The translations under genes and the position numbers were made by a program. A stretch of 64,000 bases of DNA from Rhodovulum visakhapatnamense (GTDB lineage Bacteria > Pseudomonadota > Alphaproteobacteria > Rhodobacterales > Rhodobacteraceae), in assembly GCF_004365965.1 (NCBI RefSeq), contig NZ_SOEB01000015.1, positions 1 to 64,000 of the forward strand, given 5' to 3'. Shown piece after piece: positions 7,593 to 36,830 of the stretch. The notes below the pieces were generated by a model. It was not told the origin of the DNA, ran no database searches, and saw only the letters and a program-made list of their open reading frames with translations. Position 1 is the first letter of the stretch, and the number at the start of each line of letters is the position of its first letter.

Positions 7593-7679
7593 CCGGCAAG
7601 GAAGCCCGGAACGGTCCGCCCCCCTGCGGCCGGTCCCTGCCGGTGTGGCGGGGCGCGGCCGGACCCGGCACCAAAGGCG

Positions 7680-9527: not shown

Positions 9528-9746
9528 GGGCGGGTCTCCTCTCAGCGGCCCCGCCGACCCCGGCGGGTGCCAGCCCGACAACGCAAGCGCGCCGCCCGGG
9601 TTCCGTCCGACCTTGCGCCCTCCGGATTTGCGCCCGGATGGGGGGCCTGCGACCTCTCCGCGCGCCGACGCCGGGAACCGGATCGCCCCCTTCGGGCTTG
9701 TCCCGCAATGGACCCGCAGATCGCCCCCACCGCACATCGCCCCGCC

Positions 9747-14495: not shown

Positions 14496-14508
14496 CGTCA
14501 TTCTCCGG

Positions 14509-16583: not shown

Positions 16584-16635
16584 CTGGGGCGTTTCCTGAA
16601 AAAGTGGTTGCAAACCGGAGATAATCAGGCACTGT

Positions 16636-16652
16636 TTGACTGGTCAATCAAT
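16636..16652. promoter_or_regulatory. Candidate BetI operator between betI and choX
   Basis: The sequence TTGACTGGTCAATCAAT contains the perfect dyad TTGAC-TG-GTCAA. It closely matches the E. coli bet operator as I remember it (TTGAACGTCCAATCAAT). Read on the minus strand it includes TTGACC, a plausible -35 for betI with a TATCTC -10 about 18 bases on. One BetI site could therefore serve both betICBA and choXWV. Binding is inferred. Confidence 0.7.
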
Positions 16653-16685
16653 AAATCTGCACCTCAAGTCGATCAGGGAATTGCC

Positions 16686-19945: not shown

Positions 19946-20968
19946 ATGCAATTCAAGACCCGCCTGCTGACCCTATCCGTCGCCGCCTTCGCGCTTGGCG
20001 CGGGCATGGCTCAGGCCGACACCTGGCGCTATGCCTTCGAAGAGGCGCTCGACGAGGTGCAGGGCATCTATGCCCAGAAGTTCAAGGAAGAGATCGAGGC
20101 CAATACCGACCACGAGATCCAGCTTTTCCCCTATGGCACGCTCGGCGAATCCGCCGACATCATGGAACAGGCGCAGGACGGCATCCTGCAATTCGTCGAC
20201 CAGTCGCCGGGCTTCACCGGCTCGCTGATCCCCGAGGCGCAGGTCTTCTTCGTGCCCTACCTGCTGCCGCAGGAGCCCGAAACGCTGGCCAGCTTCTTCG
20301 AGAATTCGAAGGCCATCAACGAGATGTTCCCCAAGCTCTATGCCGATCAGGGCCTGGAACTTCTGACCATGTTCCCCGAAGGCGAGGTGGCGATCACGAC
20401 CAAGGAGCCGTTCAAGACGCCCGAGGATCTGGACGAGGTCAAGATCCGCACCATGACCAACCCGCTTCTGGTGGAAAGCTACAAGGCCTTCGGCGCGACG
20501 CCGACGCCGCTGCCCTGGGGCGAGGTTTATGGCGCGCTGCAGACCAACATCATCCAGGGCCAGGAAAACCCGATGTTCTTCATCGAGTCGACGAAGATGT
20601 ACGAGGTCACCGATTACGTGACCCGGATCGGGCACAACAACTTCACGACCGCGGTGATGGCCAACAAGGACTTCTTCGAGGACCTGTCGGATGAGGACCG
20701 GCAGGCGATCCGCGACGCGGCCGATGCCGCCTTCGCCCATATCATCGATTATCAGAAGGGCCTGACCGAAGCCTCGGTCGAGAAGATCAGGGAGGCCAAG
20801 CCTTCGATGACCTTCACCACGCTGTCCGAGGAAGAACGCCAGCCCTTCAAGGACGCGGCCGGCGAGGTCGAGGCCAAGTTCCTCGAGATGACCGGCGACA
20901 GCGGCAAGGAGATCCTCGATCAGATGAAAGAGGACCTGAAGACCGCCGAGGACGCCACCCAGAGCTGA
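19946..20968 (+). CDS. teaA: TRAP transporter substrate-binding protein, ectoine TeaA-like
   Basis: A 340-residue DctP-family periplasmic protein. Signal peptide about residues 1-24, cleavage after GMAQA. Long stretches agree with Halomonas TeaA as remembered: [52 protein letters not shown] and the carboxylate-binding block [20 protein letters not shown]. TeaA binds ectoine and hydroxyectoine, so the ligand is probably an ectoine-type solute; no ectoine-degradation genes lie nearby. The start follows AGAGGAG. It lies just downstream of choXWV and heads a four-gene teaABCD-like operon. Confidence 0.85.
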
Positions 20969-20984
20969 TCCGACGGTCACCGAA

Positions 20985-21008
20985 GCGCGCGGGCCGCATC
21001 CCGCGCGC
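20985..21008 (+). other. Intercistronic hairpin between teaA and teaB
   Basis: A 9-bp perfect stem (GCGCGCGGG / CCCGCGCGC) with a six-base loop starts 17 bases after the binding-protein stop. There is no T-tract. Its position, between binding protein and permease genes, matches the hairpins at 17638 and 34667 and suggests differential stability of the binding-protein message. Confidence 0.5.
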
Positions 21009-21083
21009 TCTGGCCATTTCCCCGCCTCTTGCCCGCCCCGCACCCGGCACCCGCCCGCAGGGAGGAACGGAAGGAAGCTGCCC

Positions 21084-21743
21084 TTGTCCTCGGACCAATC
21101 GCTTCGCGCCCAGGCCAGCCCTGCTCAGGGCCCCACGCAGGCCCAGTCCCAGACCGACACCACCGCCGCCGACGACCCCGACGAGGTGGCTTATGTCTCA
21201 AGCCTTCCCGGGGTTCTGGGGACGATCGACGCGGCCATCGCGCGGGTCGAATCCGCGCTGCTGGCCGCGGGCGTCCTGCTGATGGCGCTGAACACGGTCG
21301 CCAATGTGGTCGGCCGCTACCTGTTTCAGTCGAGCCTTTTCTTCACCGAGGAACTGAACCGCATCCTGATCGTGGTGATCACCTTCGCGGGCATCAGCTA
21401 TGCCGCGCGCCAGGGCCGCCATATCCGGATGTCGGCCATCTACGATTCGCTGCCCTCGCGGGCGCGCAAGATCCTGATGATCGTCATCGCGCTGACGACA
21501 GCGGTGCTGATGTTCGGCCTGTGCTGGTTCGCGGCGGCCTATCTTCTGACCCAGGCGGGGCGCGGCCGGGTTCTGCCCGCCCTGCAGATCCCGGTCTGGA
21601 CGACGCTGGTGATCGTGCCGGTGGGCCTGTTCATGACCGGAATGCAATACCTTCTGACGGCGGTGAAGAACGCGATCTCGCGCGACGTCTACCTCTCGAC
21701 GGCGGTTCTGGAAGGCTATGACGACGACGAGACGGAGGTCTGA
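21084..21743 (+). CDS. teaB: TRAP transporter small permease, TeaB/DctQ-like
   Basis: A 219-residue inner-membrane protein with an unstructured Gln/Ala/Asp-rich tail of about 45 residues and four membrane segments. The DctQ hallmark is present: a segment with [20 protein letters not shown] followed by [12 protein letters not shown]. The start is a TTG six bases after GGAAG; no better in-frame ATG precedes the first membrane segment. Three bases separate it from the large permease gene. Confidence 0.85.
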
Positions 21744-21746
21744 GCG

Positions 21747-23042
21747 ATGGCGGCTGCAATCTTCTCGATCATGATCGTGCTGCTTCTGCTGGGCTTTCCG
21801 ATGATGATCCCGCTGATCGCGGGGGCGCTTGTGGGCTTCGTGACCCTCTTCGGCGGTCTCGGCCAGCTCGAGACCATGATCCAGCAGATGATGGCGGGCA
21901 TCCGCCCGGCCTCGCTGATCGCGGTGCCGATGTTCATCTTCGCCGCCGACATCATGACCCGCGGGCAATCCGCGGGGCGGCTGATCGACATGGTGATGGC
22001 CTTCGTCGGCCATCTGAAGGGCGGGCTCGCGATCTCGACCGCCGCCGCCTGCACCATGTTCGGCGCGGTCTCGGGCTCGACCCAGGCCACCGTCGTGGCC
22101 ATCGGCGGCCCGCTGCGGCCCCGGATGCAGAGGGCGGGCTATGGCGACAGCTTCATCCTGGCCCTCATCGTCAATGCCTCGGACATCGCCTTCCTGATCC
22201 CGCCCTCGATCGGGATGATCATCTATGGCGTGGTCTCGAACACCTCGATTGCCGAGCTCTTCATCGCGGGCATCGGGCCGGGGCTGCTGATCCTCGTGCT
22301 GTTCGCGATCTATTCCTGGGCCTATGCGGTCCGGAACGGGGTCCCGACCGAACCCCGCGCCAGCTGGGGCGAGCGTCTGCGCGCGGTCCGGGCCGCGCTC
22401 TGGCCGCTGGGCTTTCCGGCGATCATCATCGGCGGCATCTATGGCGGCATCTTCAGCCCGACCGAGGCGGCCGCGGCCTGCGTGCTTTACGCCCTGATCC
22501 TCGAAACCCTCGTCTTCCGCGAGATGGGCCTGCGCGACATCTACCGCACCGCCAAGTCGACCGGGCTGATCACCGCGGTCGTGTTCATCCTGGTGGCGGC
22601 GGGGGCGGCCTTTTCCTGGGTGATCTCCTTCGCCCAGATCCCGCAGGCCATCCTGTCGGCCGCGGGCATCGACCAGATGGGGCAGATCGGGGTGCTGTTC
22701 GCGATCTCGATCGCCTTCTTCATCGGCTGCATGTTCGTCGATCCGATCGTGGTGATCCTGATCCTGGTGCCGATCTTCGCGCCGGTCGTCGCCGATGTCG
22801 GGCTCGACCCGGTGCTGGTCGGCACGCTGATCACGCTGCAAGTCGCCATCGGCTCGGCCACGCCGCCCTTCGGCTGCGATATCTTCACCGCCATCGCCGT
22901 CTTCAAGCGGCCCTACATGGAGGTGATCCGGGGCACGCCGCCCTTCATCCTGATCCTGCTCGGCGTCTCGGTGGCGCTGATCTTCTTCCCCCAGATCGCG
23001 CTGTTCCTCCGCGATCTCGCCTTCCCCGGCGAGGCCGGGTGA
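21747..23042 (+). CDS. teaC: TRAP transporter large permease, TeaC/DctM-like
   Basis: A 431-residue DctM-type membrane protein with about 12 membrane segments, the sodium-coupled channel of the TRAP system. Characteristic pieces are the AAACTMFGAVSGSTQATVVA loop, IPPSIGMIIYGVVS and the late GSATPPFGCDIFTA motif. GGAGG in the end of the preceding gene supplies the ribosome site. With the DctP and DctQ partners it makes a complete importer. Confidence 0.93.
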   Translation: MAAAIFSIMIVLLLLGFPMMIPLIAGALVGFVTLFGGLGQLETMIQQMMAGIRPASLIAVPMFIFAADIMTRGQSAGRLIDMVMAFVGHLKGGLAISTAAACTMFGAVSGSTQATVVAIGGPLRPRMQRAGYGDSFILALIVNASDIAFLIPPSIGMIIYGVVSNTSIAELFIAGIGPGLLILVLFAIYSWAYAVRNGVPTEPRASWGERLRAVRAALWPLGFPAIIIGGIYGGIFSPTEAAAACVLYALILETLVFREMGLRDIYRTAKSTGLITAVVFILVAAGAAFSWVISFAQIPQAILSAAGIDQMGQIGVLFAISIAFFIGCMFVDPIVVILILVPIFAPVVADVGLDPVLVGTLITLQVAIGSATPPFGCDIFTAIAVFKRPYMEVIRGTPPFILILLGVSVALIFFPQIALFLRDLAFPGEAG

Positions 23043-23061
23043 GGGCCGAAAGGAGACCGGT

Positions 23062-23499
23062 TTGTTCAACTCGATCCTCGTTCCCTATGACGGCTCGGCC
23101 GGGGCCGAACGCGCGCTGCGCCAGGCGGTCGCGCTGGCCAGGCTCTGCGACGCCCAGCTGTCGGTGCTGACCGTCTTCCGGCACCATTCGATGCTGGAAG
23201 CCTCGCTGTCGATGGTCCGCAAGGACGAGCCGGGGCCGCTGGACGACGCCATGCGCGGCTATGCCCGAGAGGTGGCGGACTATGCCAAGCGGCTGGCGCG
23301 CGAGGCCGGGGCCGAGGGCACCCGCGCCTTCATCAAGGCCGGACCGCCCGCCCGCACCATCATCCGCTTCGCCCGCGAACACGGGAACGACCTGATCGTG
23401 ATCGGCAGCCGGGGCCTCGGCTCGGTCGAGAACTACCTGCTGGGCAGCGTCTCGCACAAGGTCACGGGGCTCGCCGACTGCCCGGTTCTGGTGGTCTGA
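23062..23499 (+). CDS. teaD: UspA-domain protein, TeaD-like
   Basis: A 145-residue single universal stress protein domain with the ATP-binding signature near the C-terminus (VIGSRGLGSVENYLLGSVSHKV). The start is a TTG five bases after AGGAGA (MFNSILVPYDGSAGAER). In Halomonas TeaD is encoded directly after the TeaABC transporter and modulates ectoine uptake in an ATP-dependent way; the same order here suggests the same role. The stop is ten bases from the convergent hutC stop. Confidence 0.85.
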   Translation: MFNSILVPYDGSAGAERALRQAVALARLCDAQLSVLTVFRHHSMLEASLSMVRKDEPGPLDDAMRGYAREVADYAKRLAREAGAEGTRAFIKAGPPARTIIRFAREHGNDLIVIGSRGLGSVENYLLGSVSHKVTGLADCPVLVV

Positions 23500-23509
23500 G
23501 CCGCAGCGC

Positions 23510-24211
23510 TCAGAGCCCGAGGCACAGCCGGTAGCTTTGGGCGAAATGCTCGCGCACATAGGTGATCGGCGCCTCATGGAGCCAGGTCTGCCGCTCCATC
23601 ACCAGCACCGGATCGGCTGGCGCACAGCCCAGCGCCGCAGCCGCCGCCTGCCCGGCCGGTTCGGCATGACACGCGATCCCGCCATGGGTATAGGGCGCCT
23701 CGCGCACCAGCCATTCGTTGGGGCTGACGGCCGCCAGATCGGCCGAGGCGATACCGGGGACGGTTCTCAGCACCACCCAGCGCTGCTCGAACATGTGGGC
23801 TTCCCCGTCGGCCAGATGCAGGCTTTCAAGATACAGCGTCGCTTCCGCCTCGGGCAGTTTCAGCCGGGCGCGCACCTCTTCGGGCGCGGGGCCGGTTGCG
23901 CGCGCCAGAAGCCGGTAGCCATAGACCTGCCCGCGCGCCTCGACCTCGCGCCGGATCTGGGGGATTTCCAGCGTCGCCTTGCGCTGCGGCGCCTCGATCA
24001 CCCGGGTTCCGGCCTTGCGGCGCCGGTCGAGGAAGCCCTCCTCGGCCAGATCGCGCAAGGCCCGGTTCACCGTCGCCCGGGCACAGCCGAATTCCGCCGC
24101 GATGTCGGCCTCGTTCGGGATCAGCTCGCCCGGCGGATAGGTCCGGTCGCGGATCCGCAGCATGATGGTGTCGCGGATCGACTGCCACGAGGCGGCGCGC
24201 TCTCCGGCCAT
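23510..24211 (-). CDS. hutC: Histidine utilization repressor (GntR/HutC family)
   Basis: A 233-residue GntR regulator. The winged helix at about 10-75 contains NEADIAAEFGCARATVNRAL and FLDRRRKAGTRVI, and the C-terminal UTRA domain ends VLVMERQTWLHEAPITYVRE. HutC represses hut genes until urocanate is present. The start was placed at the ATG two bases after the hutF stop; the open frame continues upstream but is not GntR-like. It is cotranscribed with hutF and thus probably autoregulated through the divergent hutF/hutI operator. Confidence 0.92.
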   Translation of the reverse strand: MAGERAASWQSIRDTIMLRIRDRTYPPGELIPNEADIAAEFGCARATVNRALRDLAEEGFLDRRRKAGTRVIEAPQRKATLEIPQIRREVEARGQVYGYRLLARATGPAPEEVRARLKLPEAEATLYLESLHLADGEAHMFEQRWVVLRTVPGIASADLAAVSPNEWLVREAPYTHGGIACHAEPAGQAAAAALGCAPADPVLVMERQTWLHEAPITYVREHFAQSYRLCLGL

Positions 24212-24213
24212 GG

Positions 24214-25584
24214 CTAGAGCCCGTCCCGGAGGCGGCGCATCGCGGCCGCATATCCCGCCACGATCTCGTCGCGCCGGACATGCCGCCCGCCCCGCACCAC
24301 ATGGCGCCCGGCCGACCAGACATCGCTGACGGCGCGGTCGTCGCGCGCGAAGATCCAGGTATCGAGCAGCAGATCGCCCTGCCGCCCGATGCCGTCGGGT
24401 CCCATGTCGCCCAGCGCCAGCAGATCGGCCCAGTTGCCGACCGCAAGCCCGCCGCTTGCGCGCCCGGCCGCCTGCGCCCCGCCCTCGGCCGCGCCCTGAA
24501 ACAGCACCCGCCCGGTCGAGCGGTCCCCGGTCGCCAGCGCCGCGCGGGTGCGGTCGCGCAGCCGCTGCGAATAGTCGAGCGTGCGCAGCTCTTCGCTCAG
24601 CGAGATCCGGATATTGCTGTCCGAGCCGACGCCGAAGCGCCCGCCCGCCTGCACCCAGCGCACCCCGTCGAAGATGCCGTCGCCAAGGCTCGATTCGGTG
24701 ATCGGGCAAAGCCCGGCGACAGCACCGGTCGCGGCCAGCGCCAGCGTCTCGGCAGGCTTCATCTGCGTTGCGTGGATCGGGCACCAACGGGCATCGACCG
24801 GGGCATTTTCCAGCAGCCATTCGACCGGACGCCGACCGGTCGCGGCCAGCACCTCGTCGACCTCGGCCTGCTGCTCGGAGATATGGATATGGATCGGTCC
24901 CTCGGGTGCCAGCGCCTGGGCCGCGGCGAGCCCCACGGCATCGACCGCGCGCAGGGAATGCGGCGCGACGCCCATCCGGCAATCGGGGGAAAGACCCGCG
25001 ACATGGACCGCCGCCGCCTCGTGCAACCGTGCGAACCGGTCGGGGTCGTTGCCAAACCGGTCCTGCCCCGCGACCAGCGCGCGGCGGTCGAGCCCGCCAT
25101 AGGTATAAAGCACCGGCAGCAGCGTCAGCCCGATGCCCGAGACCGCCGCCGCCGCCGCGATCCGGCCCGACATTTCGGCCAGATCGGCATAGGGCGCGCC
25201 GCCCGGGCCATGATGCAGGTAGTGGAACTCGACATTGGTGGCATAGCCCGCCTCCAGCATCTCCATCTGCACGAAGGCGGCGATCGCCTCGACATCCTCG
25301 GGACCGAGCCGGTCGAGAAAGCGGTACATCAGCCGCCGCCAGGTCCAGAAACTGTCGCGCGGATCGGGGCCGCGGGATTCTGTCAGCCCCGCCATCGCCC
25401 GCTGAAAGGCATGGCTGTGCAGGTTCGCGGGGGCGGGCAGAAGCGTCTCGACACCGGTTGCACCGGGCGGACAGGGCACGTTTTCACGCACTCCCGCAAT
25501 TTTTCCGCCGCTTTCCACGGCAATTTCAACGTTCTCCGCCCAGGAATTCATCACAAGCGCATGCCGCGCCCAGACCCTCTGCAT
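24214..25584 (-). CDS. hutF: Formimidoylglutamate deiminase
   Basis: A 456-residue amidohydrolase that deiminates N-formimidoyl-glutamate to N-formyl-glutamate and ammonia. Metal-site and substrate motifs are NLHSHAFQRAMAGLTE, IHIHISEQQAEVDEV, PIHATQM and GSDSNIRISLSEELRTLDY, all typical of HutF. GGAGGG sits seven bases before the ATG. It diverges from hutI. Its presence with hutG defines the two-step branch to glutamate, rather than direct formiminoglutamase. Confidence 0.94.
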   Translation of the reverse strand: MQRVWARHALVMNSWAENVEIAVESGGKIAGVRENVPCPPGATGVETLLPAPANLHSHAFQRAMAGLTESRGPDPRDSFWTWRRLMYRFLDRLGPEDVEAIAAFVQMEMLEAGYATNVEFHYLHHGPGGAPYADLAEMSGRIAAAAAVSGIGLTLLPVLYTYGGLDRRALVAGQDRFGNDPDRFARLHEAAAVHVAGLSPDCRMGVAPHSLRAVDAVGLAAAQALAPEGPIHIHISEQQAEVDEVLAATGRRPVEWLLENAPVDARWCPIHATQMKPAETLALAATGAVAGLCPITESSLGDGIFDGVRWVQAGGRFGVGSDSNIRISLSEELRTLDYSQRLRDRTRAALATGDRSTGRVLFQGAAEGGAQAAGRASGGLAVGNWADLLALGDMGPDGIGRQGDLLLDTWIFARDDRAVSDVWSAGRHVVRGGRHVRRDEIVAGYAAAMRRLRDGL

Positions 25585-25601: not shown

Positions 25602-25642
25602 TTGACTTGATTATTATGTGCAGACATATAATCTCGAATCAA
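25602..25642. promoter_or_regulatory. Divergent hutF/hutI promoters with candidate HutC operator
   Basis: An AT-rich island between divergent genes. On the plus strand TTGACT (25602-25607) and a perfect TATAAT (25627-25632) are 19 bases apart, fitting hutI. On the minus strand TTGATT (25642-25637) and CATAAT (25618-25613), 18 bases apart, fit hutF. Over both -10 boxes lies the dyad TATGT-GCAG-ACATA (25615-25628), extended by ATT/AAT flanks. A repressor bound there would block both promoters, so it is the likely HutC site. Confidence 0.7.
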
Positions 25643-25657
25643 GGAGGAGCCGACAAC

Positions 25658-26848
25658 ATGACAGATCTCACCCTTGCCAATGCGACCATCCTGCCACTCG
25701 GCGAGGATGCGCCGAGGCGGATCGAGCGGGGTTGGCTGAGGATCGAGGGCGGCCGCATCGCGGCGCTGGGCGACGGCCCGGCCCCGGACGGTGGCCCCAT
25801 CGAGGATCTGGGCGGCCGGCTGGTCACGCCCGCGCTGGTCGATTGCCACACCCATCTGGTCTATGGCGGCAGCCGCGCCCGCGAATTCGAGATGCGGCTG
25901 GAAGGTGCCAGCTATGAGGACATCGCGCGGGCGGGCGGCGGGATTCTCGCGACCGTCACCGCGACCCGCGCCGCCTCCGAGGACGATCTGGTCGCCTCGG
26001 CCCTGCCCCGGCTCGACTGCCTGCTGGCCGAGGGCGCTGGCACCATCGAGGTCAAGTCGGGCTACGGGCTGACCGTCGCGGACGAGCTGAAGATGCTGCG
26101 CGCGGCGCGGCGGCTGGGCCGCGAGCGCCCGGTCCGCATCGTCACCAGCTGGCTCGCGGCCCACGCCCTGCCGCCCGAATACAAGGGCCGCGCCGAGGCC
26201 TATATCGACGAGGTCGCCATTGCCGGGCTGCGCGCGGCCCATGCCGAGGGGCTGGTCGATGCGGTCGACGGCTTCTGCGAGGGCATCGCCTTCTCGGTGG
26301 CGCAGATGGCGCGGATCTTCGATGTCGCGGACGAGCTGAGCCTGCCGGTCAAGCTGCATGCCGAGCAGCTGTCGCATCTGGGCGGCAGCCTGCTGGTGGC
26401 CGAACGCGGCGGTCTGTCGGCCGATCATGTCGAACATGCCGATGCGGCCGATGCCGCGGCGCTGGCCCGGGCGGGCGCGGCCGCGGTGCTGCTGCCCGGT
26501 GCCTTCTACACCCTGCGCGAGACGCAGATGCCGCCCGTCGCCGCCTTCCGCGAGGCGGGCACCGCGATGGCGCTGGCGACCGACTGCAACCCCGGCACCT
26601 CGCCGCTGACCTCGCTTCTGCTGACCATGAACATGGCCGCGACGCTGTTCCGGCTGACCCCGGACGAATGCCTGCGCGGCGTCACCGCGAACGGCGCCCG
26701 GGCGCTGGGGCTGACCGATTGCGGCCGACTGGCGCCGGGCCTGCGCGCCGATCTTGCCGTCTGGGACATCGCCGAACCGGCCGAACTGACCTACCGGATC
26801 GGCTTCAACCCGCTTCACGCCCGTTATTTCGAGGGATGCAAATGCTGA
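25658..26848 (+). CDS. hutI: Imidazolonepropionase
   Basis: A 396-residue metal-dependent amidohydrolase opening 4-imidazolone-5-propanoate to N-formimidoyl-L-glutamate. Motifs: [18 protein letters not shown], the KSGYGL loop, [11 protein letters not shown] and [11 protein letters not shown]. The start was set at the ATG eight bases after AAGGAGGAG (MTDLTLANA); an upstream in-frame ATG falls within the operator. The stop overlaps the hutH start by seven bases. First gene of the plus-strand hut unit. Confidence 0.95.
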
Positions 26849-28362
26849 CTCTGACGCCGGGCGAGACCACGCTCGCCCAACTGGAAACGCTCTGGCGCGA
26901 GGAAGCGCCCGCGCGGCTGGCCGAGACCACCGGCCCCGCCATCGCCGCCTCGGCCGCCCGCATCGCCGCCGCCGCCCAAGGCGATCAGGCCGTCTACGGG
27001 GTCAATACCGGCTTCGGCAAGCTTGCCTCGGTCCGCATTCCGCCCGAGGACACCGCCACGCTGCAGCGCAACCTGATCCTGTCGCATTGCTGCGGCGTCG
27101 GCGCGCCCCTCGACAGCGCCACCGCCCGGCTGGTGATGGCGCTGAAACTGCTCAGCCTCGGCCGCGGCGCCTCGGGCGTGCGCCCCGAGATCGTCGCGCT
27201 GATCGAGGCGATGCTCGAGAAGGGCGTGACCCCCGCGATCCCGGAACAGGGCTCGGTCGGGGCCTCGGGCGATCTGGCGCCGCTGGCGCATATGGCCGCC
27301 GTCATGATCGGCGCGGGCGAGGCCATCTATCAGGGCGAGACCCTACCCGGGGCCGAGGCGCTGGCCCGCGCGGGGCTGACCCCCGTCACGCTGGGCGCCA
27401 AGGAGGGGCTGGCGCTGATCAACGGCACCCAGGTCTCGACCGCGCTAGCGCTGACCGGCTGGTTCCGTGCCATGGCCTGCCTGCGCGCCGCCATCGTCAC
27501 CGGCGCGATGTCGACCGACGCCATCATGGGCTCGACCGCGCCGACCCGCGCCGAGATCCACACCCTGCGCGGCCATCGCGGCCAGATCGACGTCGCGGCC
27601 GCGATGCGGGGGCTGCTGAAGGGCAGCGAGATCCGCGAAAGCCACCGCGAGGACGATGCCCGGGTGCAGGACCCCTACTGCATCCGCTGCCAGCCGCAGG
27701 TGACGGGCGCGGCGCTCGATCTGCTGCGCTTTGCCGGGCAGACGCTTGAAACCGAGGCCAATGCGGTGACCGACAACCCGCTGGTGCTGTCGGACGGGTC
27801 CATCGTCTCGGGCGGCAATTTCCATGCCGAACCCGTGGCCTTCGCCGCCGACCAGATCGCGCTTGCCGTGGCCGAGATCGGCGCCATCGCCCAGCGCCGG
27901 GTCGCGCTGATGGTCGACCCCGCGCTCAGCTTCGGCCTGCCGCCCTTCCTGACGCCCGAACCGGGGCTGAACAGCGGGCTGATGATCGCCGAGGTCACCA
28001 CCGCCGCGCTGATGAGCGAGAACAAGCATCTGGCCGCGCCCTGCTCGGTCGACAGCACCCCCACCAGCGCCAATCAGGAGGACCATGTCAGCATGGCCGC
28101 CCATGCCGCGCGGCGTCTGGGCGGGATGACCCGCAACCTCGCCGTGATCCTCGGCGTCGAGGCGCTTTGCGCGGGCCAGGGCATCGAGTTCCGCGCGCCG
28201 CTGGCAACCTCCCAGCCGCTGAAACGCGCGCTGGCCGCGATCCGCGCCGAGGTGGCCACGATGGGCGAGGACCGCTACCTCGCGCCCGACCTCGCCCGGG
28301 CGCAGGCGCTGATCGAAACCGGCAGCCTCGTCGCCGCCGCAGGACTGGAGATGCCCGCATGA
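26842..28362 (+). CDS. hutH: Histidine ammonia-lyase
   Basis: A 506-residue lyase converting L-histidine to urocanate and ammonia. The Ala141-Ser142-Gly143 triplet that forms the MIO cofactor lies in [17 protein letters not shown]; other family blocks are [11 protein letters not shown] and [17 protein letters not shown]. The second ATG of ATGCAAATG was used because GAGGG is six bases before it. Translation is coupled to hutI and, through an ATGA overlap, to hutG. Confidence 0.96.
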
Positions 28363-29153
28363 GCCCCGTCGACGTGACCCGGGGCGACAGCCCCGTCATC
28401 CTCGGACTGCCCCATACCGGCACCCATGTGCCCGAGGACATCCTTGCCCGGCTGAATGACCGGGGCCGTGAGCTGACCGATACCGACTGGCATGTGCATG
28501 AGCTTTACGACGGGCTCCTGCCCGGCGCGACGACGGTGCGCGCCACCTTCCACCGCTACGTGATCGACGCGAACCGCTCGCCCGAGAATGAAAGCCTCTA
28601 CCCCGGGCAGAACACCACCGGTCTGGTGCCGCTGACCGATTTCGACGGCGAACCGATCTGGGACACCGCCCCCGACGCGGCCGAGACCGCCCGGCGGCTG
28701 GCCGCGTTCCACGCCCCGTATCACGCCGCCCTTGCCGCCGAGATCGCGCGGGTCCGCGCCCGCCATGGCGTCGCGATCCTCTATGACTGCCACTCGATCC
28801 GCTCGGTCATTCCCTATCTCTTCGAGGGCACCCTGCCCGATTTCAACATCGGCACCGCCAATGGCACGACCTGCGCGCCCGCCATTGCCGAAGCCGCCGC
28901 AGGCGTCTGCGCCAGGGCCGAGGGCTATACCCATGTGCTGAACGGACGCTTCAAGGGTGGCTGGACCACGCGCCATTACGGGCGGCCCGAAACCGGGGTG
29001 CATGCGATCCAGATGGAACTGACGCAATCGTGTCACCTGACCACCGAGGCCGCGCCCTTCGCGCTCGACCCCGACAAGGCCGCGCGGTTGCGCCCGCATC
29101 TGGCCGCGATCCTCGCCCGGATCGAGGCGCTGGCGCCGGAGCTGTCCTCGTGA
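28359..29153 (+). CDS. hutG: N-formylglutamate deformylase
   Basis: A 264-residue N-formylglutamate amidohydrolase-family enzyme that releases formate and glutamate, the last pathway step. Motifs are [13 protein letters not shown], the metal ligands in [14 protein letters not shown] and the late block [12 protein letters not shown]. The start overlaps the hutH stop (ATGA), and the stop overlaps the next GTG start (GTGA), so there is no gap before the CoA-transferase gene. Confidence 0.94.
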
Positions 29154-30346
29154 AGCCGCTGGAAGGTCTGCGCATCCTCGATCTGACCCGGGTCCTTGCA
29201 GGCCCCTTCGCGACCGCGATCCTTGCCGATCTGGGCGCCGAGGTGATCAAGATCGAGCCGCCCCGGGGCGACGAATACCGCCATATCGGCCCGTTCCGCG
29301 AAGGCGAATCCGCGCTGTTCTCGCTGACCAATCGCGGCAAGCACTCGGTGGTTCTGGACCTCAAGGCGCCCGAGGGGCAGGCGCTGGCGCGCCAGCTTGC
29401 CACCGGGTGCGACGTGGTGGTCGAGAATTTCCGCCCCGGCGTCGCCGCGCGGCTGGGGCTTGGCGCCGAGGATCTGCGCCGCGACAATCCCGGCCTCGTC
29501 CATTGCGCGATTTCGGGCTTCGGGCAGTCGGGCCCCGCGGCGGACCTGCCCGCCTATGACATCGTCGTGCAGGCGATGTCGGGCTGGATGGACGCGACCG
29601 GCGAGGAAGACGGCGCGCCGCTGAAGGTAGGCGAGGCGCTCGGCGATGTCGCGGCGGGGCTTTACGCCGTCATCGCGATCCTGGCAGCCCTTGTCGGCCG
29701 GGGCCGCAGCGGCAAGGGCGCGACGCTCGATGTCGCGATGCTCGATTGTCTGGTGGCGATGCTGCCGACCAGCCATGCGCTTCATCTTTACGCGAAGGCC
29801 CCGGTGGCCCGCGTCGGCAACCGCCACCCGTTCTCGACCCCGTTCGGCGCCTTCCGCACCGCAGATGGCCATGTGGTCATCGCCGTTCTCAGCCCGCGCC
29901 AGTTCGCGGGTCTCTGCGCCGCGATCGGAAGACCCGAGGCGGCCGAGGATCCGCGCTTTGCCACCGACGAACTGCGCACCGCGCATGAGCCCGAGATCCG
30001 CGCCATGATCGAGGCCTGGACCGGCCCCCGCCCCGCCGCCGATGCGGTCGCGGCGCTGTCGGCTGCCAAGGTGCCCGCCGCGCCGATCCTGACGCTGGCC
30101 GATCAGCTCGGCTCGGATCATGCCGCCGCGCGCGGGCTGGTAAGCGAGCTGCCCCATCCCCGGCTGGGCAAGGCCCCGGTGGTGGGCCAGCCGGTCCGCT
30201 TCGATGGCCAGGCGCCGCTGGCCGAAACCGGCGCGCCCGCACTGGGCAGCGGCACCCGCGCGGTGCTGGAAGGGCTCGGGCTCGATCGGGACCAGATCGC
30301 GGGGCTCGTGGCCGCCGGAATTGTCAGGGAGTATGAGGATGCGTGA
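29150..30346 (+). CDS. CaiB/BaiF family (family III) CoA transferase
   Basis: A 398-residue family III acyl-CoA transferase. Visible are the CoA-fold opening LRILDLTRVLAGPFATAILA, KIEPPRGDEYR, NRGKHSVVLDLK and the region GFGQSGPAADLPAYDIVVQ, whose Asp137 aligns with the catalytic Asp of formyl-CoA transferase. It starts with a GTG inside the hutG stop and overlaps the following dehydrogenase gene by eight bases. It is therefore embedded in, and coupled to, the hut operon. It is not a known step of histidine breakdown. Inference: it activates an imidazole carboxylate such as imidazolepropionate by CoA exchange with a product thioester. Confidence 0.88.
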   Translation: MKPLEGLRILDLTRVLAGPFATAILADLGAEVIKIEPPRGDEYRHIGPFREGESALFSLTNRGKHSVVLDLKAPEGQALARQLATGCDVVVENFRPGVAARLGLGAEDLRRDNPGLVHCAISGFGQSGPAADLPAYDIVVQAMSGWMDATGEEDGAPLKVGEALGDVAAGLYAVIAILAALVGRGRSGKGATLDVAMLDCLVAMLPTSHALHLYAKAPVARVGNRHPFSTPFGAFRTADGHVVIAVLSPRQFAGLCAAIGRPEAAEDPRFATDELRTAHEPEIRAMIEAWTGPRPAADAVAALSAAKVPAAPILTLADQLGSDHAAARGLVSELPHPRLGKAPVVGQPVRFDGQAPLAETGAPALGSGTRAVLEGLGLDRDQIAGLVAAGIVREYEDA

Positions 30347-31481
30347 GTTCGACCATCTGCTGAGCGCCGAGGAATGCCAGTTCCTCGACATGCTGGAGAG
30401 GTTCGCCGCCGAGGTGCTGACCCCGCAGGCGGCCGAAACCGACCGCACGGGCGCCTTTGTCCATGCCCAGCTGGCGGCCCTGGCCGAGACCGGCATGATG
30501 GGCGCGAACCTGCCCGAGCGCTGGGGCGGTTCAGACATCTCGGCGCATGCGCTGTTCGAGGCGGTCGCGGCGGTCGCGGGCGGCTGCGGCTCGACCGTCT
30601 CGGCGCTGACCGCGCATTTCCTCGCGACCGACAGCCTGTTGCTGGGCGGCGATGACGCGATCCGCGCGCGCTTCCTGCCGGCGGCGGCCGAGGGCCGGAT
30701 GCTGGGCGCCTTCGGGCTGACCGAACCCAATGCGGGCTCGGACCCGGCCGACATGCGCACCCGCGCCACAAGGGACGGCGAGAGCTGGCATATCAAGGGC
30801 CGGAAATGCTTCATCTCGAATGGCGGCGTTGCCGATTTCGTCGTCGTCTTCTGCGTGACCGACCCTGAGGCGGGCCATCGCGGGATCTCGGCCTTCGTGG
30901 TCGAGAAGGGCACGCCGGGTCTCGTGCCCGGCCGGGTCGAGCAGACCATGGGTCTGAAGGGCGGCCATGTCTGGGAGCTCGATCTCGACGTGACCGTGCC
31001 CGATGCCAACCGCGTCGGCCCCGAGGGCTCGGGTTTCAAGACCGCGATGAAGGTGCTCGACAATGGCCGGACCGAGGTCGCGGCCATGGCCGTGGGCATC
31101 GCCCGGGCGGCCCTGTCCGAGGCCCGCGACTGGGCCAAATCCCGCATCATCGGCGGCGAGCCGCTCGCCAATCGGCAGGGCATCCAGTGGATGCTGGCCG
31201 ACATGGCGACCGAACTGTCCGCAGCCGAGCTTCTGGGCCATGAGGCCGCGCGGCAGCGGCAGGCGGGGCTGCGCTTCACCACCGCCGCCTCGAAGGCCAA
31301 GCTCTACGCTTCCGAGGCCGCGGGCCGGATCGCCGATACCGCGCTCCAGATCCATGGCGGCTACGGCTACACCCACGATTTCCCGCTCGAACGCCATGCC
31401 CGCGACCTGCGCATCATGCGCATCTATGAGGGCTCGTCCGAGATCCAGCGCAACATCATTGCCGGCCGTCTTCTGGCCTGA
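30339..31481 (+). CDS. Acyl-CoA dehydrogenase within the hut operon
   Basis: A 380-residue flavoprotein of the short/branched-chain acyl-CoA dehydrogenase type. It has FAD-site blocks GAFGLTEPNAGSDPADMRT and WHIKGRKCFISNGGVADF, the helix QIHGGYGYTHDFPLER, and the catalytic base Glu364 in IYEGSSEIQRN. Start: the second ATG, seven bases after AGGGAG; it overlaps the CoA-transferase gene. hutU follows 21 bases later. The acyl substrate is unknown. With the CoA transferase it could desaturate imidazolepropionyl-CoA to urocanyl-CoA, the three-carbon side chain being the right size for this class. Confidence 0.9.
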   Translation: MREFDHLLSAEECQFLDMLERFAAEVLTPQAAETDRTGAFVHAQLAALAETGMMGANLPERWGGSDISAHALFEAVAAVAGGCGSTVSALTAHFLATDSLLLGGDDAIRARFLPAAAEGRMLGAFGLTEPNAGSDPADMRTRATRDGESWHIKGRKCFISNGGVADFVVVFCVTDPEAGHRGISAFVVEKGTPGLVPGRVEQTMGLKGGHVWELDLDVTVPDANRVGPEGSGFKTAMKVLDNGRTEVAAMAVGIARAALSEARDWAKSRIIGGEPLANRQGIQWMLADMATELSAAELLGHEAARQRQAGLRFTTAASKAKLYASEAAGRIADTALQIHGGYGYTHDFPLERHARDLRIMRIYEGSSEIQRNIIAGRLLA

Positions 31482-31502
31482 GCTTCCGAAAGGACCCGAT
31501 CC

Positions 31503-33197
31503 ATGACCGATCCGCGCCACAACACCCGTGACATCTTCCCGCCGACGGGCCCCGAGATCACCGCGAAAAGCTGGCAGACCGAGGCGCCGATGCGGATGCT
31601 GATGAACAACCTGCATCCCGACGTGGCCGAGAACCCGCATGAGCTGGTCGTCTATGGCGGCATCGGCCGCGCGGCACGCACCTGGCAGGATTTCGACCTG
31701 ATGGTCGAGACGCTGAAAACGCTTGAAGGCGACCAGACCATGCTGGTGCAGTCGGGCAAGCCCGTGGGCGTCTTCCGCACCTATCGCGACGCCCCGCGCG
31801 TGCTGATCGCCAATTCGAACCTCGTGCCGCACTGGGCCACCTGGGAGCATTTCAACGAGCTCGACCGCAAGGGCCTGGCGATGTACGGCCAGATGACCGC
31901 CGGGTCCTGGATCTATATCGGCGCGCAGGGCATCGTGCAGGGCACCTACGAGACCTTCGCCGAGGCCGGGCGTCAGCATTATGACGGCAATCTCAGGGGC
32001 AAGTGGATCCTGACCGGCGGCCTTGGCGGCATGGGCGGCGCGCAGCCGCTGGCCGCGGTGATGGCGGGCGCCTGCTGCCTGGCCGTCGAATGCGACGAGG
32101 ATCATGCCGATTTCCGCATCCGCACCCGTTATTGCGACGAGAAGACCCACAGCCTCGACGAGGCGCTGGCGATGATCGGGCGCTGGACCGAGGCCGGAGA
32201 GGCCAAGTCGGTCGCGCTGATCGGCAATGCCGCCGATGTCTTCCCCGAGATCCTGCGCCGGATGCAGGCGGGCGAGCCGCTGCCGAACGGGCGGCCCGAC
32301 ATCGTCACCGACCAGACCTCGGCCCATGACCCGTTCCACGGCTATCTGCCGAAAGGCTGGACCGTGGCCGAATGGCGCGCCCGGCAGGAGAGCGATCCCA
32401 AGGGCGTCGCGACGGCCGCCCGGGCCAGCATGAAGGACCATGTCGCGGCGATGGTGGGCTTCTGGAATGCGGGCATCCCGACCCTCGATTACGGCAACAA
32501 CATCCGCCAGATGGCGCTGGAAGAGGGGCTCGAGGATGCCTTCGCCTTCCCGGGCTTCGTGCCGGCCTATATCCGGCCGCTGTTCTGCCGGGGCGTGGGC
32601 CCGTTCCGCTGGGCCGCCCTGTCGGGCGATCCCGAGGATATCTACAAGACCGATGCGAAGATGAAGGAGCTGTTCCCCGAGAATGCCGGGCTGAATCGCT
32701 GGCTTGACATGGCGCGCGAACGGATCGCCTTCCAGGGCCTGCCCGCGCGGATCATGTGGATTGGGCTGGGCGACCGCCACCGGGCCGGGCTTGCGATCAA
32801 CGAGATGGTGCGTAACGGCGAGCTGAAAGCCCCCGTCGTGATCGGCCGCGACCATCTGGACAGCGGCTCTGTCGCCTCGCCCAACCGCGAGACCGAGGCG
32901 ATGAAGGACGGGTCCGACGCGGTCAGCGACTGGCCTCTCCTGAATGCGCTTCTGAACACCGCCTCGGGCGCGACCTGGGTGTCGCTGCACCATGGCGGCG
33001 GCGTCGGCATGGGGTTCAGCCAGCATGCGGGCATGGTGATCTGCTGCGATGGCACGGAAGAGGCCGACCGCAGGCTTGAACGCGTGCTTTGGAACGACCC
33101 CGCAACCGGCGTCATGCGCCATGCCGATGCGGGCTACGAAATCGCGATAGACTGCGCGCGCGAGCACGGGCTGACCCTGCCGGGCATCCTCAAATGA
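31503..33197 (+). CDS. hutU: Urocanate hydratase
   Basis: A 564-residue urocanase, family length about 555-570, hydrating urocanate to imidazolonepropionate with tightly bound NAD. Seen: dinucleotide loop [15 protein letters not shown] (about 169-183), [18 protein letters not shown], and the C-terminal block [13 protein letters not shown]. The urocanase signature, normally [10 protein letters not shown], reads [10 protein letters not shown] here, so Met418 replaces the cysteine regarded as catalytically important in Pseudomonas (Cys410). This is direct from the DNA (codon ATG). The rest of the protein looks intact. AAGGA precedes the ATG; the stop overlaps hutD (ATGA). Confidence 0.95.
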
Positions 33198-33742
33198 GGC
33201 TGATCCGCCGCAGCGATCTGACGCCCGCGCCCTGGAAGAACGGGGGCGGGCTGACCTGGGAACTGGCGGCCTTCCCCGAAGGCGCGGGCTTTCCGGACAT
33301 GCTGTGGCGGATGAGCCTGGCCGAGGTCGCCTCTGACGGCCCGTTCTCGGCCTTTCCCGGCATCGACCGCACCCTGACGGTGCTGGCGGGCCGGGGCATG
33401 CGCCTCGATTTCGGCGGGGGCAGCGTGGACCTGAGCGAAGACTCGGGCCCGCTGTCCTTCCCGGGCGAGGCGCCGGTGACGGCCCGGCTGGGCGCCGGAT
33501 CGATCCTCGATTTCAACGTCATGACCCGGCGCGGCCGGGCCGCGCATGCGGTTATTGCCGTTTCGGCAGGCGTTCCGGCCCCGCCGGACACGCGGGCGTT
33601 GATCGCACGGCAAAAGCCCGTGGCGGTCGCCGGTTTTGCCCTTGCACCCGGCGAGGCGCTCATGTCCGATCCGGGACGGGACCTGGGCGGCACTGCCGGA
33701 GACGGGCCGATGCTTGCCATCTGCCTGCGCATGACGCCATGA
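33194..33742 (+). CDS. hutD: HutD family protein
   Basis: A 182-residue cupin-like protein of the HutD/Ves family. The conserved opening [18 protein letters not shown] and [18 protein letters not shown] are visible. In Pseudomonas HutD is not an enzyme of the pathway; it is proposed to limit hut expression, possibly by binding a pathway intermediate. It overlaps hutU by four bases and is the last pathway-linked gene before the transporter, about 100 bases away. Confidence 0.88.
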
Positions 33743-33843: not shown

Positions 33844-34656
33844 ATGACGCTTCGTCTTTCGCTGAAATCCGCGCTTTTCGGGCTCAGCGCCCTGACTCTG
33901 ACCGCTTCCGGCGCGCTGGCCGACCAGCTGTCCGACATCAAGGCCGCGGGCAAGATCGTCGCCGCGACCGAGATGCACTATGCCCCCTTCGACATGCTGG
34001 AGAAGGGCGAATATGTGGGCTTCGACCGCGACCTCTTCGACGAGATCGCCAAGGAGCTGGGCGTCACCCCCGAATATCAGGACCTGCCCTGGACTTCGAT
34101 CCTGCCGGGCCTCGAGGTCAGCAAGTTCGACTTCGTTCTGGCCCCGGTGACGATGACGGCCGAGCGCGCCGAGCGCTACGCCTTCACCCTGCCGATCTCG
34201 GATTCCACCGTGGCCTTCGTGCAGCGCACCGGCGGCGACATGACCGCGCCCGAAGATGCCAAGGGCAAGACCGTCGGCGTGCAGAAGGGCACCGCCCAGC
34301 AGGCCCAGCTCGAGGCCTATGGCGAAAAGATCGGCGGCATCAAGATCAAGGAATACGGCACTCCCGACGAGGCCTATGCCGACCTGATGACCGGCCGTCT
34401 CGACGCGGTGGCGGGCTCGGCGCCGCTGCTCGACTATCTCGCCAAGACCCGGCCCGAACAGTTCTCGGTCGTCAAGCCGCCCTTCGGCAAGCCCACCTAT
34501 TTCGCCTGGGTCGCGCGCAAGGGCGAGGGCGACACGCTGGTCGCTGCGATCAACGAGGCGCTGATCAAGATCCAGGATGACGGCCGGATGGCCGCGCTGC
34601 AGGAGAAATGGTTCGGCGCCGCGACCGAGCTGCCGCAGGAAATGCCCGAGCTCTGA
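33844..34656 (+). CDS. Polar amino-acid ABC transporter, substrate-binding protein (hut-linked)
   Basis: A 270-residue SBP_bac_3 (cluster F) protein. Signal peptide about residues 1-26, cleavage after SGALA. Typical blocks are YAPFDMLEKGEYVGFDRDLF, GVQKGTAQQAQLEAYG and DAVAGSAPLLDYL. AGGAGA lies four bases before the ATG. Being directly downstream of hutD, it probably imports histidine, urocanate or a related imidazole acid; ligand specificity cannot be read reliably from the sequence. Confidence 0.9.
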   Translation: MTLRLSLKSALFGLSALTLTASGALADQLSDIKAAGKIVAATEMHYAPFDMLEKGEYVGFDRDLFDEIAKELGVTPEYQDLPWTSILPGLEVSKFDFVLAPVTMTAERAERYAFTLPISDSTVAFVQRTGGDMTAPEDAKGKTVGVQKGTAQQAQLEAYGEKIGGIKIKEYGTPDEAYADLMTGRLDAVAGSAPLLDYLAKTRPEQFSVVKPPFGKPTYFAWVARKGEGDTLVAAINEALIKIQDDGRMAALQEKWFGAATELPQEMPEL

Positions 34657-34666
34657 CGCGACCGAT

Positions 34667-34691
34667 GCGGGCCGGATCGCCTCCGGCCCGC
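34667..34691 (+). other. Intercistronic hairpin after the hut-linked binding-protein gene
   Basis: A perfect 9-bp stem (GCGGGCCGG / CCGGCCCGC) with a seven-base loop starts 11 bases after the stop codon. There is no T-tract. Like the stems after choX and teaA it may stabilise the upstream message and lower permease expression. Confidence 0.5.
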
Positions 34692-34716
34692 CCACAAGCC
34701 AGGGAGCGGGCCGTCC

Positions 34717-35364
34717 GTGTTTTCCTTTCAGACCATCGTCGAAAACCTGCCGACGCTTTTGGGCGCCGCGCGCTACACGCTGCTGATATCGGTCCTGGGC
34801 TGTGCACAGGGGCTGATCCTCGGCGCGCTTCTGTGCGCGGCGGCGCTGTCGAAACGGACCGCGCTGCGGCGGGCCGCCGGGCTTTACGTCAGCTTCTTTC
34901 GCGGCGTACCGCTGCTGATCCAGCTGCTCGTGGCCTATTACCTGCTGCCGGTCGTCGGCATCAACGTGCCGCCTCTGGCCGCTGCCGTGCTGACCGTCGG
35001 TCTGTGCGCTGCCGCTTACCTCTCCGAGGTGCTGCGCGGCTCGATCAACGCCATTCCGAAGGGCCAGGCCGAGGCCGCGCTGGCCATCGGCATGAGCCCG
35101 GGCGATCTCTGGGTCCGGGTCTTGTTGCCGCAGGCGCTCAAGATCGGCCTGCCCGCCATCGTCAACGAGCTGATCCTGCTGGTGAAGGCCAGTTCGCTGG
35201 TGACCGTCGTCGGCATCGTCGAGATCACCCGGATGAGCCAGTCGATCGCCTCCTCGACCTATCGCTATCTCGAGATCTACCTCGCCGCCGCCTTCCTTTA
35301 TCTCGCGATCAACCTGGTGATCGCCGCGGCCGGGCGGCTTCTGGAACGGAGGCTGACGGTCTGA
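34717..35364 (+). CDS. Amino-acid ABC transporter permease 1 (HisM/HisQ type)
   Basis: A 215-residue permease with about five membrane segments. The family loop is AYLSEVLRGSINAIPKGQAEAALAIGMSPG. The start is GTG with AGGGAG ten bases upstream. The stop overlaps the second permease start by one base (TGATG). The two permeases would form a heterodimer serving the upstream binding protein. Confidence 0.9.
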   Translation: MFSFQTIVENLPTLLGAARYTLLISVLGCAQGLILGALLCAAALSKRTALRRAAGLYVSFFRGVPLLIQLLVAYYLLPVVGINVPPLAAAVLTVGLCAAAYLSEVLRGSINAIPKGQAEAALAIGMSPGDLWVRVLLPQALKIGLPAIVNELILLVKASSLVTVVGIVEITRMSQSIASSTYRYLEIYLAAAFLYLAINLVIAAAGRLLERRLTV

Positions 35365-36026
35365 TGCTGGAGATGCTGCACCGCTACGGCCCCGACCTGC
35401 TGACCGGCTTCGGGCTGACGCTTCTGACCTGGGTGCTGGGCACCGTGGGCGGGCTCGTGCTGGGGTTCTTCCTCGAAATGGCCCGACGCTTCGGGCCTCG
35501 GTTCTGGATCGGCTGGCCGATCCGGGCCTATGTCGAATTCATCCGCGGCACGCCCTTCCTCGTCCAGCTTTTCGTGCTGTACTATGGCGGGCCGCTGATC
35601 GGGCTGAGGCTCGACGCGCTGCCCGCGGGCGTGCTTGGGCTGTCGCTTTACGGCGCCGCCTATTTCACCGAGATCCTGCGCGCGGGCTTCGATGCCGTGC
35701 CCAAGGGCCAGATCGAGGCCGCCCGTGCCATCGGCCTGCCCGGGCGCACCATCGTCTGGCGCATCATGCTGCCGGTGATGATGGTCTCGGCCCTGCCCGC
35801 GCTGGTGAATTTCGCGATCATCCTGACCAAGGAAACCGTCATCCTGTCGATGATCACCGTGCCCGAGATCATGTTCCAGACCCAGACCATGATGAGCGAG
35901 ACCTTCGCCTTCGTGCTGCCGATCCTGATCCTCGCGCTGTTCTTCTGGGGCTTCGTCGAGGTCATCTCGCGGTTCGGCCGCCGCCTCGAACGCCGCTTCA
36001 CCCACTATCTTCTCGAAGAAAGCTGA
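35364..36026 (+). CDS. Amino-acid ABC transporter permease 2 (HisM/HisQ type)
   Basis: A 220-residue permease, paralogous to the preceding gene, with about five membrane segments. EAA loop: EILRAGFDAVPKGQIEAARA followed by IGLPGRTI. The C-terminus is basic (RRLERRFTHYLLEES). Three bases separate it from the ATPase gene, so all three are one transcription unit. Confidence 0.9.
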   Translation: MLEMLHRYGPDLLTGFGLTLLTWVLGTVGGLVLGFFLEMARRFGPRFWIGWPIRAYVEFIRGTPFLVQLFVLYYGGPLIGLRLDALPAGVLGLSLYGAAYFTEILRAGFDAVPKGQIEAARAIGLPGRTIVWRIMLPVMMVSALPALVNFAIILTKETVILSMITVPEIMFQTQTMMSETFAFVLPILILALFFWGFVEVISRFGRRLERRFTHYLLEES

Positions 36027-36029
36027 CCG

Positions 36030-36830
<801 letters not shown>

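Follow-up and report, generated by a model that had tools for sequence, protein, structure and literature searches.

Why should a family III coenzyme A (CoA) transferase and an acyl-CoA dehydrogenase be encoded within an otherwise ordinary operon for histidine utilisation (hut)? The question is raised by a 64,000-nucleotide stretch of Rhodovulum visakhapatnamense DNA (contig NZ_SOEB01000015.1, positions 1 to 64,000; hereafter the window, meaning the whole stretch analysed), in which a first-pass annotation had placed the two genes between hutG and hutU and had proposed that they form a shunt from imidazole propionate to urocanate. The gene order and junctions that it gave are exact in the sequence: the end of hutG (29153) overlaps the GTG start of the CoA-transferase gene (29150) in a GTGA, the end of the latter (30346) shares 8 bases (ATGCGTGA) with the start of the dehydrogenase gene (ATG at 30339), and 21 bases (31482-31502) separate the end of the dehydrogenase gene (31481) from the start of hutU (31503). 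The shunt itself is supported by comparative genomics, on which basis we consider it likely that the pair converts imidazole propionate (dihydrourocanate) to urocanate by way of CoA esters and so feeds urocanate hydratase, HutU. The substrate and the oxidative direction are what we infer from sequence and gene context, and a ligase-free, self-priming CoA loop, which also belonged to the proposal, is an inference that we offer with less assurance. The pair and the genes on either side of it are as follows.

29150..30346, + strand: CoA-transferase, family III (CaiB/BaiF), proposed imidazole propionate:urocanyl-CoA CoA-transferase; Pfam CoA_transf_3, 430.9 bits
30339..31481, + strand: acyl-CoA dehydrogenase, proposed imidazole propionyl-CoA dehydrogenase; N-terminal, middle and C-terminal acyl-CoA dehydrogenase domains
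28359..29153, + strand: hutG, N-formylglutamate deformylase; TIGR02017, 370 bits (cut-off 279)
31503..33197, + strand: hutU, urocanate hydratase; TIGR01228, 923 bits (cut-off 375)

The pair within hut operons of other genomes

Among 149 genomes of the family, one per genus, a dehydrogenase search found orthologues at 62% identity or more in six, the next best match being at 44%; four of the six are embedded in hut genes and two lie beside a LysR gene. A species-level scan (one genome per species) was queried with four hut-linked and two LysR-linked dehydrogenase sequences, and the best 80 of 297 relatives were taken, selected on dehydrogenase sequence and not on context; the nearest among them is from Rhodovulum kholense (98%). 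In 58 of these best 80 the pair lies between hutG (35) or hutH (23) and hutU, embedded being defined as having a hut gene on the same strand no more than 400 bases away on each of the two sides; Paracoccus denitrificans (L074) has an embedded pair. At one further locus (L084) the pair lies between hut remnants, two (L047, L059) are short contigs showing one side only, and 19 have hut on neither side, namely seven mini-operons described below, two loci with hut within 9 kilobases (kb; L113, L120), one with hutU nearby on the opposite strand (L100) and nine others. Looking for the pair between hut genes elsewhere had been suggested in the first-pass annotation, and the pair was found to keep company with hut genes both in the class of the window and in two families outside it. 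Chance insertion into hut was rejected, the same placement recurring in 58 of the best 80 relatives, many of them close kin.

Co-occurrence with hutU and absence of other beta-oxidation genes

The pair was further expected to accompany hutU and not other genes of beta-oxidation, and both expectations were borne out. Twenty-one of 22 genomes whose pairs are unlinked to hut, or loosely linked (hut genes or their remnants lie close by in L084, L100, L113 and L120), carry hutU. The dehydrogenase occurs in five of 385 genomes of a class sample, all five with hutU against a baseline of 97/385; all six pair genomes of the family sample have it (baseline 82/149), as do all 14 in the two families outside the class (f190 and f189), 13 of them above the cut-off. 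These baselines are somewhat high because the hutU model also matches thiourocanate hydratases. One such enzyme, encoded by a second hutU-like gene at 1504-3108 of L143 in the Shinella fusca genome (G155, which also holds L115; 1044 bits, cut-off 930), was picked up as hutU, so that TIGR01228 alone overcounts hutU; second hutU-like matches of 668-688 bits were also seen in G150, G151, G153 and G114.

Relatives of the window's own thiolase, FadJ-like protein and ligase (the thiolase and ligase queries above their model cut-offs, the FadJ-like query below) were sought within 5 kb of the dehydrogenase gene at E values up to 1e-10. None was found at 103 loci, 86 of them with 5 kb on both sides, as against seven of nine control loci, where all seven had thiolases and three also ligases. 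For this search, and for the tree and residue counts below, L031, L032, L033, L173 and L175 were dropped, their genomes being already represented, and L153 and L202 were not entered.

The two proteins

The CoA_transf_3 domain spans residues 4-367 of the 398 of the CoA-transferase, nearly its full length, and the dehydrogenase has all three domains of its superfamily; both proteins fall below the cut-off of every NCBIfam model that they match (seven and 23 models, respectively). Residue D166 of the transferase, which we take to be the catalytic aspartate from the position of that residue in formyl-CoA transferase, stands in a column with Asp in 99 of 100 relatives and one gap, and Glu364 of the dehydrogenase, presumably the catalytic glutamate of the C-terminal YEG motif, is kept in 103 of 103. 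Position 246 of the dehydrogenase is acidic in all 103 (99 Glu, 4 Asp) and glycine in nine of nine controls, as it is in the five solved relatives shown, whilst at positions 57, 88, 92, 95, 103 and 361 the clade has invariant residues that the controls do not share. By medium-chain dehydrogenase numbering, positions 88, 91, 92, 95 and 246 would line or border the acyl pocket, and an acid at 246 would suit an imidazolium ring. A tree of 113 rows, of the quick kind and with a long-branch warning, divides 104 pair-type dehydrogenases from the nine controls by a branch with a Shimodaira-Hasegawa-like approximate likelihood ratio test (SH-aLRT) value of 100.

Could the pair act instead on glutarate or another ordinary acyl-CoA, as a succinyl-CoA:glutarate CoA-transferase with a glutaryl-CoA dehydrogenase, and lie in hut by accident? 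Succinate--glutarate CoA-transferase is the best NCBIfam match of the transferase, but at 318.7 bits against a cut-off of 750, and the dehydrogenase reaches 219 of the 470 bits set for glutaryl-CoA dehydrogenase; a glutarate pair was rejected on these equivalog scores, which are far below the cut-offs. Moreover, the hut placement recurs in many genera, and outside the class in another gene order, and the 103 loci are free of thiolase, FadJ and ligase relatives within the 5 kb searched, so that this reading appears very improbable. A carnitine CaiA/CaiB pair was likewise rejected, the window proteins scoring 138.4 bits with the CaiB model (cut-off 413) and 147 with the CaiA model (cut-off 540).

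The hut operon of the window

The gene order in the window is hutC, hutF, hutI, hutH, hutG, CoA-transferase, acyl-CoA dehydrogenase, hutU, a hutD-like gene and an ATP-binding cassette (ABC) importer of amino-acid type, and from hutI to the ABC ATPase the operon holds, apart from the pair, hut and ABC genes only. HutC, HutF, HutI, HutH, HutG and HutU each score above an NCBIfam cut-off, making this an ordinary hut operon with hutF. Its other features are:

26842..28362, + strand: hutH, histidine ammonia-lyase; TIGR01225, 691 bits (cut-off 539)
25649..26848 (alternative start 25658), + strand: hutI, imidazolonepropionase; TIGR01224, 419 bits (cut-off 298)
25616..25627, no strand assigned: HutC-operator-like palindrome ATGTGCAGACAT in the hutF/hutI gap, the window's sole exact ATGT-N4-ACAT
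24214..25584, - strand: hutF, formimidoylglutamate deiminase; TIGR02022, 555 bits (cut-off 413)
23510..24217 (alternative start 24211), - strand: hutC, repressor; TIGR02018, 253 bits (cut-off 220)
33194..33742, + strand: hutD-like gene (HutD/Ves family); Ves model, 67.8 bits, far below its cut-off of 292
33844..34656, + strand: ABC importer substrate-binding protein of polar amino-acid type, below every model's cut-off
34717..35364, + strand: ABC importer permease 1; BPD_transp_1
35364..36026, + strand: ABC importer permease 2; BPD_transp_1
36030..36830, + strand: ABC importer ATPase; amino-acid ABC ATPase models, best 312 bits (cut-off 379)

The name HutD for the protein of 33194..33742 is tentative, Ves being the one model that it matched. 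Adjoining hutC, at 19946-23499, are genes for a tripartite ATP-independent periplasmic (TRAP) transporter (DctP, with the membrane parts identified by reading) and a UspA-like gene; upstream of hut, at 11383-17600, choline dehydrogenase, choline-sulfatase and a choline-binding ABC protein make up a choline-O-sulfate to betaine cluster.

HutC-linked mini-operons and plasmid copies

In the seven mini-operons, from Phyllobacterium, Sinorhizobium, Aquamicrobium, two Mesorhizobium, Shinella and a Hyphomicrobiales metagenome-assembled genome (MAG), hutC is divergent from genes for the CoA-transferase, the dehydrogenase, a substrate-binding protein, two permeases and an ATPase, with no intact hut enzyme gene in the stretch examined. 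The same hutC, pair and ABC set lies on a Sinorhizobium plasmid (L148), and all eight regulators score above the HutC cut-off (228-245 bits against 220). The palindrome ATGT-N4-ACAT is exact in five of the seven mini-operon promoters (0.07 expected) and present with at most one mismatch in all seven (0.23 expected); for the hutF/hutI gaps the corresponding counts are 25 of 47 (0.15 expected) and 45 of 47 (0.72 expected), the expectations being taken from random places in the same loci and a 250-base stretch being used for L093, where the regulator had been called too long. A first guess at the operator, TTGTATATACAA, matched the alphaproteobacterial loci poorly and was replaced by this palindrome. 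Urocanate is an inducer of hut, and control of the pair by HutC would make sense on the proposed mechanism. The HutC inducer is named as histidine or urocanate in one paper (PMC12977541).

In Paracoccus alkanivorans (L084, 8447-11506) the intact pair and importer are bordered by HutI, HutG and HutU fragments, and the genome has a complete hutU at another site; from its sequence this locus is likely to record the birth of a mini-operon, as a fossil of the loss of a hut operon. A weak trace of the end of hutU (38%, E 4e-4) stands in L086 at a site matching the L084 remnant. The importer thus accompanies the pair even after loss of the hut enzymes.

Plasmid relatives of the dehydrogenase number 15 records, 14 at 58% or above and one at 45%. 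Six regions were inspected: L153 is embedded in hut, L148 is the mini-operon just described, L151 has an annotated hutC and ABC set, and L149, L150 and L152 have no hut enzyme nearby. In L153 (Thioclava nitratireducens plasmid, 7022-11853) the hut operon with its pair lies near an IS6 transposase, and the matches to hutG and to hutU are both split in two, which may reflect frameshifts or sequencing errors. In L151 (Mesorhizobium sp. AR02 plasmid pMspAR02a) the pair stands beside the annotated hutC, an amino-acid ABC transporter and a LysR gene, and its neighbourhood adjoins a ring-hydroxylating oxygenase set.

The LysR-linked loci raise a narrower alternative, compatible with the proposed function for the window, in which imidazole propionate is the substrate of the hut-embedded and HutC-linked pairs only and the LysR-linked branch acts on a different acid. 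Several such pairs do lie away from hut (L034, L035, L078 and L119, with LysR confirmed, and L150 and L152, with LysR annotated). However, L113, L120, L171, L172 and L206 (LysR confirmed) and L205 (LysR by reading) lie within 9 kb of hut, L151 stands beside the hutC-ABC set, the six clade-specific dehydrogenase positions (57, 88, 92, 95, 103 and 361) are invariant in both types, and hutU is retained in the genomes of L034, L035, L078, L111, L116 and L119; a split of this kind thus seems to us unlikely, though it deserves to be kept in mind. In L120 and L172, TRAP genes adjoin the LysR-type pair and hut.

Families outside the class and a genome without HutH

In a phylum sample of 299 genomes the dehydrogenase matched at 52% in family f190, probably the Pseudomonadaceae, and at 51% in family f189. 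The gene is present in ten of 138 f190 genomes, and all ten loci have the order hutU, CoA-transferase, dehydrogenase, permease; hutU is whole in eight, is 96% present at a contig end in L202 and is represented by its last quarter only in L196, and the permeases of L170 and L204 are NCS1-like, at scores below that model's cut-off. Two nearly full-length hutU matches were found in seven of these ten genomes, one in two and fragments only in the last, and the hutU that precedes the pair is often a second copy. TGTA-N2-TACA, given as the footprinted HutC consensus in the paper cited above (PMC12977541), lies upstream of hutU in seven of the eight f190 loci examined (0.19 expected), L201 being the miss. 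In f189 the pair occurs in four of 150 genomes, and in three of these hutH and hutU are no more than 9 kb away. That the gene order differs outside the class suggests more than one encounter between the pair and hut.

A further arrangement is that of the f190 genome G851 (100% complete, 3.3 megabases in two contigs, 36% GC in the stretch read), which reads hutC, hutD, hutU, CoA-transferase, dehydrogenase, permease, hutG, hutI. HutC, HutU, HutG and HutI are all above their cut-offs, and no histidine ammonia-lyase was found in the genome by TIGR01225 or, with matches up to an E value of 1 considered, by PF00221. Among four genomes sampled from the genus the pair occurs in G851 alone, and the sister genome G827 has neither hutH nor hutU. 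A urocanate pathway with the pair and without HutH, in this one genome, would be as the hypothesis predicts. On balance we favour a wider view, in which the pair is a transferable imidazole-propionate module with a ligase-free loop, often with its own importer and HutC, that would have joined hut independently in at least two lineages and have replaced HutH as the entrance to the Hut pathway in the low-GC G851.

Proposed mechanism and alternatives

In the proposed scheme, imidazole propionate would be taken up by an importer, for which the ABC system of 33844-36830 is the probable candidate in the window. The CoA-transferase would shift CoA from urocanyl-CoA to imidazole propionate, freeing urocanate, and the dehydrogenase would re-form urocanyl-CoA by oxidation of the imidazole propionyl-CoA, with electron-transfer flavoprotein (ETF) accepting the two electrons. 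Urocanate would then be degraded by HutU, HutI and the remaining Hut enzymes and would relieve HutC. If the product of the dehydrogenase is destined for urocanate, its start should be imidazole propionate or a close analogue, and since the module has a CoA-transferase and neither ligase nor thioesterase, CoA exchange between urocanyl-CoA and imidazole propionate is the economical scheme. Such a loop would run without a ligase or thioesterase and would need just its first CoA from another acyl-CoA. The type of module, a CoA-transferase with an acyl-CoA dehydrogenase, is known; what is new is the proposed substrate and its grafting on the Hut pathway.

The chemistry is reversible in principle, and the solved relatives of the dehydrogenase include CarC of caffeyl-CoA reductase (6fah_C). 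The pair might accordingly run in reverse, urocanate taking CoA, urocanyl-CoA being reduced and imidazole propionate being excreted as an electron sink, like hydrocaffeate in Acetobacterium. Against this, no Etf gene adjoins the pair in the 58 embedded loci, because both neighbours are hut genes (Etf genes were not searched for elsewhere); the mini-operons couple the enzymes to an importer; G851 lacks hutH as a source of urocanate, yet retains hutU, hutG and hutI; and hosts such as Paracoccus respire. Reductive operation is possible, but a poor fit to the importers and to the hutH-less genome, and we think it improbable.

A ring-modified analogue, such as N-methyl- or thio-imidazole propionate, might instead undergo the same type of reaction. 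The mini-operon genome G155 does encode the thiourocanate hydratase of L143 noted above, and four other genomes of the 22-genome set have second hutU-like matches of similar score. The HutU adjacent to the pair scores, however, as a urocanate hydratase, reaching 652 bits in the window and 688 in L204 with the thiourocanate hydratase model (cut-off 930). We judge such a substrate improbable too, and a little more so. An ergothioneine (thiourocanate) route was rejected, no thiourocanate hydratase adjoining the pair in the window or L204.

Several points nevertheless weigh against the conversion of imidazole propionate to urocanate. At nine of the 80 loci, which read mostly as LysR-linked pairs, a 9-kb radius around the pair is free of hut enzyme genes (although the contigs of L082 and L114 are short, and the pair of L119 adjoins a hutD-like gene), and the one of 22 genomes with no hutU match is a Zavarzinia MAG, that of L114. 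Many rows are close kin, so that the locus counts do not amount to as many independent events; both the class and the family baseline include the genome of the window itself, and two of the class-sample pair genomes also belong to the 22-genome test. The palindrome ATGT-N4-ACAT was picked after sites in the alphaproteobacterial loci had been seen, not blind, and its odds accordingly flatter. Conservation does not separate imidazole propionate from an analogue with a substituted ring, the dehydrogenase might work in the reductive direction, and G851 could simply import free urocanate.

Imidazole propionate is described, in a structural paper on the urocanate reductase UrdA, as a product of gut microbes that has been associated with type 2 diabetes (PMC7921117). 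If the proposal is true, the pair would mark those organisms of soil, sea and animals that consume imidazole propionate, would supply enzymes with which the compound might be sensed or removed and would make for a hut pathway independent of histidine.

Comparison with known systems

In the open-licence library searched, outside which subscription journals mostly fall, there is no mention of urocanyl-CoA, urocanoyl-CoA, imidazolylpropionyl-CoA or imidazolepropionyl-CoA, and no match for urocanate, HutC and acyl-CoA dehydrogenase together or for imidazole propionate, urocanate and both enzyme names. Degradation of imidazolylpropionate by Pseudomonas testosteroni was reportedly described by Coote and Hassall in 1973 and is said to run through urocanate; we know of no genes for it. 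Genes of the pair type could explain this reported physiology, and a two-gene route back to urocanate would, if true, put genes to the activity reported in 1973.

CaiB and CaiA of carnitine metabolism resemble the pair in being a family III CoA-transferase and an acyl-CoA dehydrogenase. They are the carnitine CoA-transferase and crotonobetainyl-CoA reductase, which handle a charged acid and pass CoA between substrate and product, whereas the window pair is proposed to oxidise, not reduce, and scores below both models' cut-offs. CarA and CarCDE of caffeate respiration in Acetobacterium woodii exchange CoA between an arylpropionate and the corresponding acrylate in a closed loop, and CarC is a sequence relative of the window dehydrogenase; that system is reductive and electron-bifurcating and has its own Etf, whereas in the window operon hut and ABC genes stand beside the pair.

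UrdA interconverts urocanate and imidazole propionate, but it acts on the free acids, and reductively, whereas the two enzymes of the pair are from different families and would work on CoA esters. Imidazole propionate is termed non-metabolizable in the structural paper on UrdA (PMC7921117), and a 2026 preprint on gut imidazole propionate, in the part available, deals with production and competing histidine pathways and not with breakdown (PMC13320830). In the Hut pathway, finally, histidine is converted to urocanate and onwards to glutamate, and it is this first intermediate that the pair is proposed to feed; the difference is that the pair would add an entry with a starting point other than histidine, and would do so in G851 without HutH.

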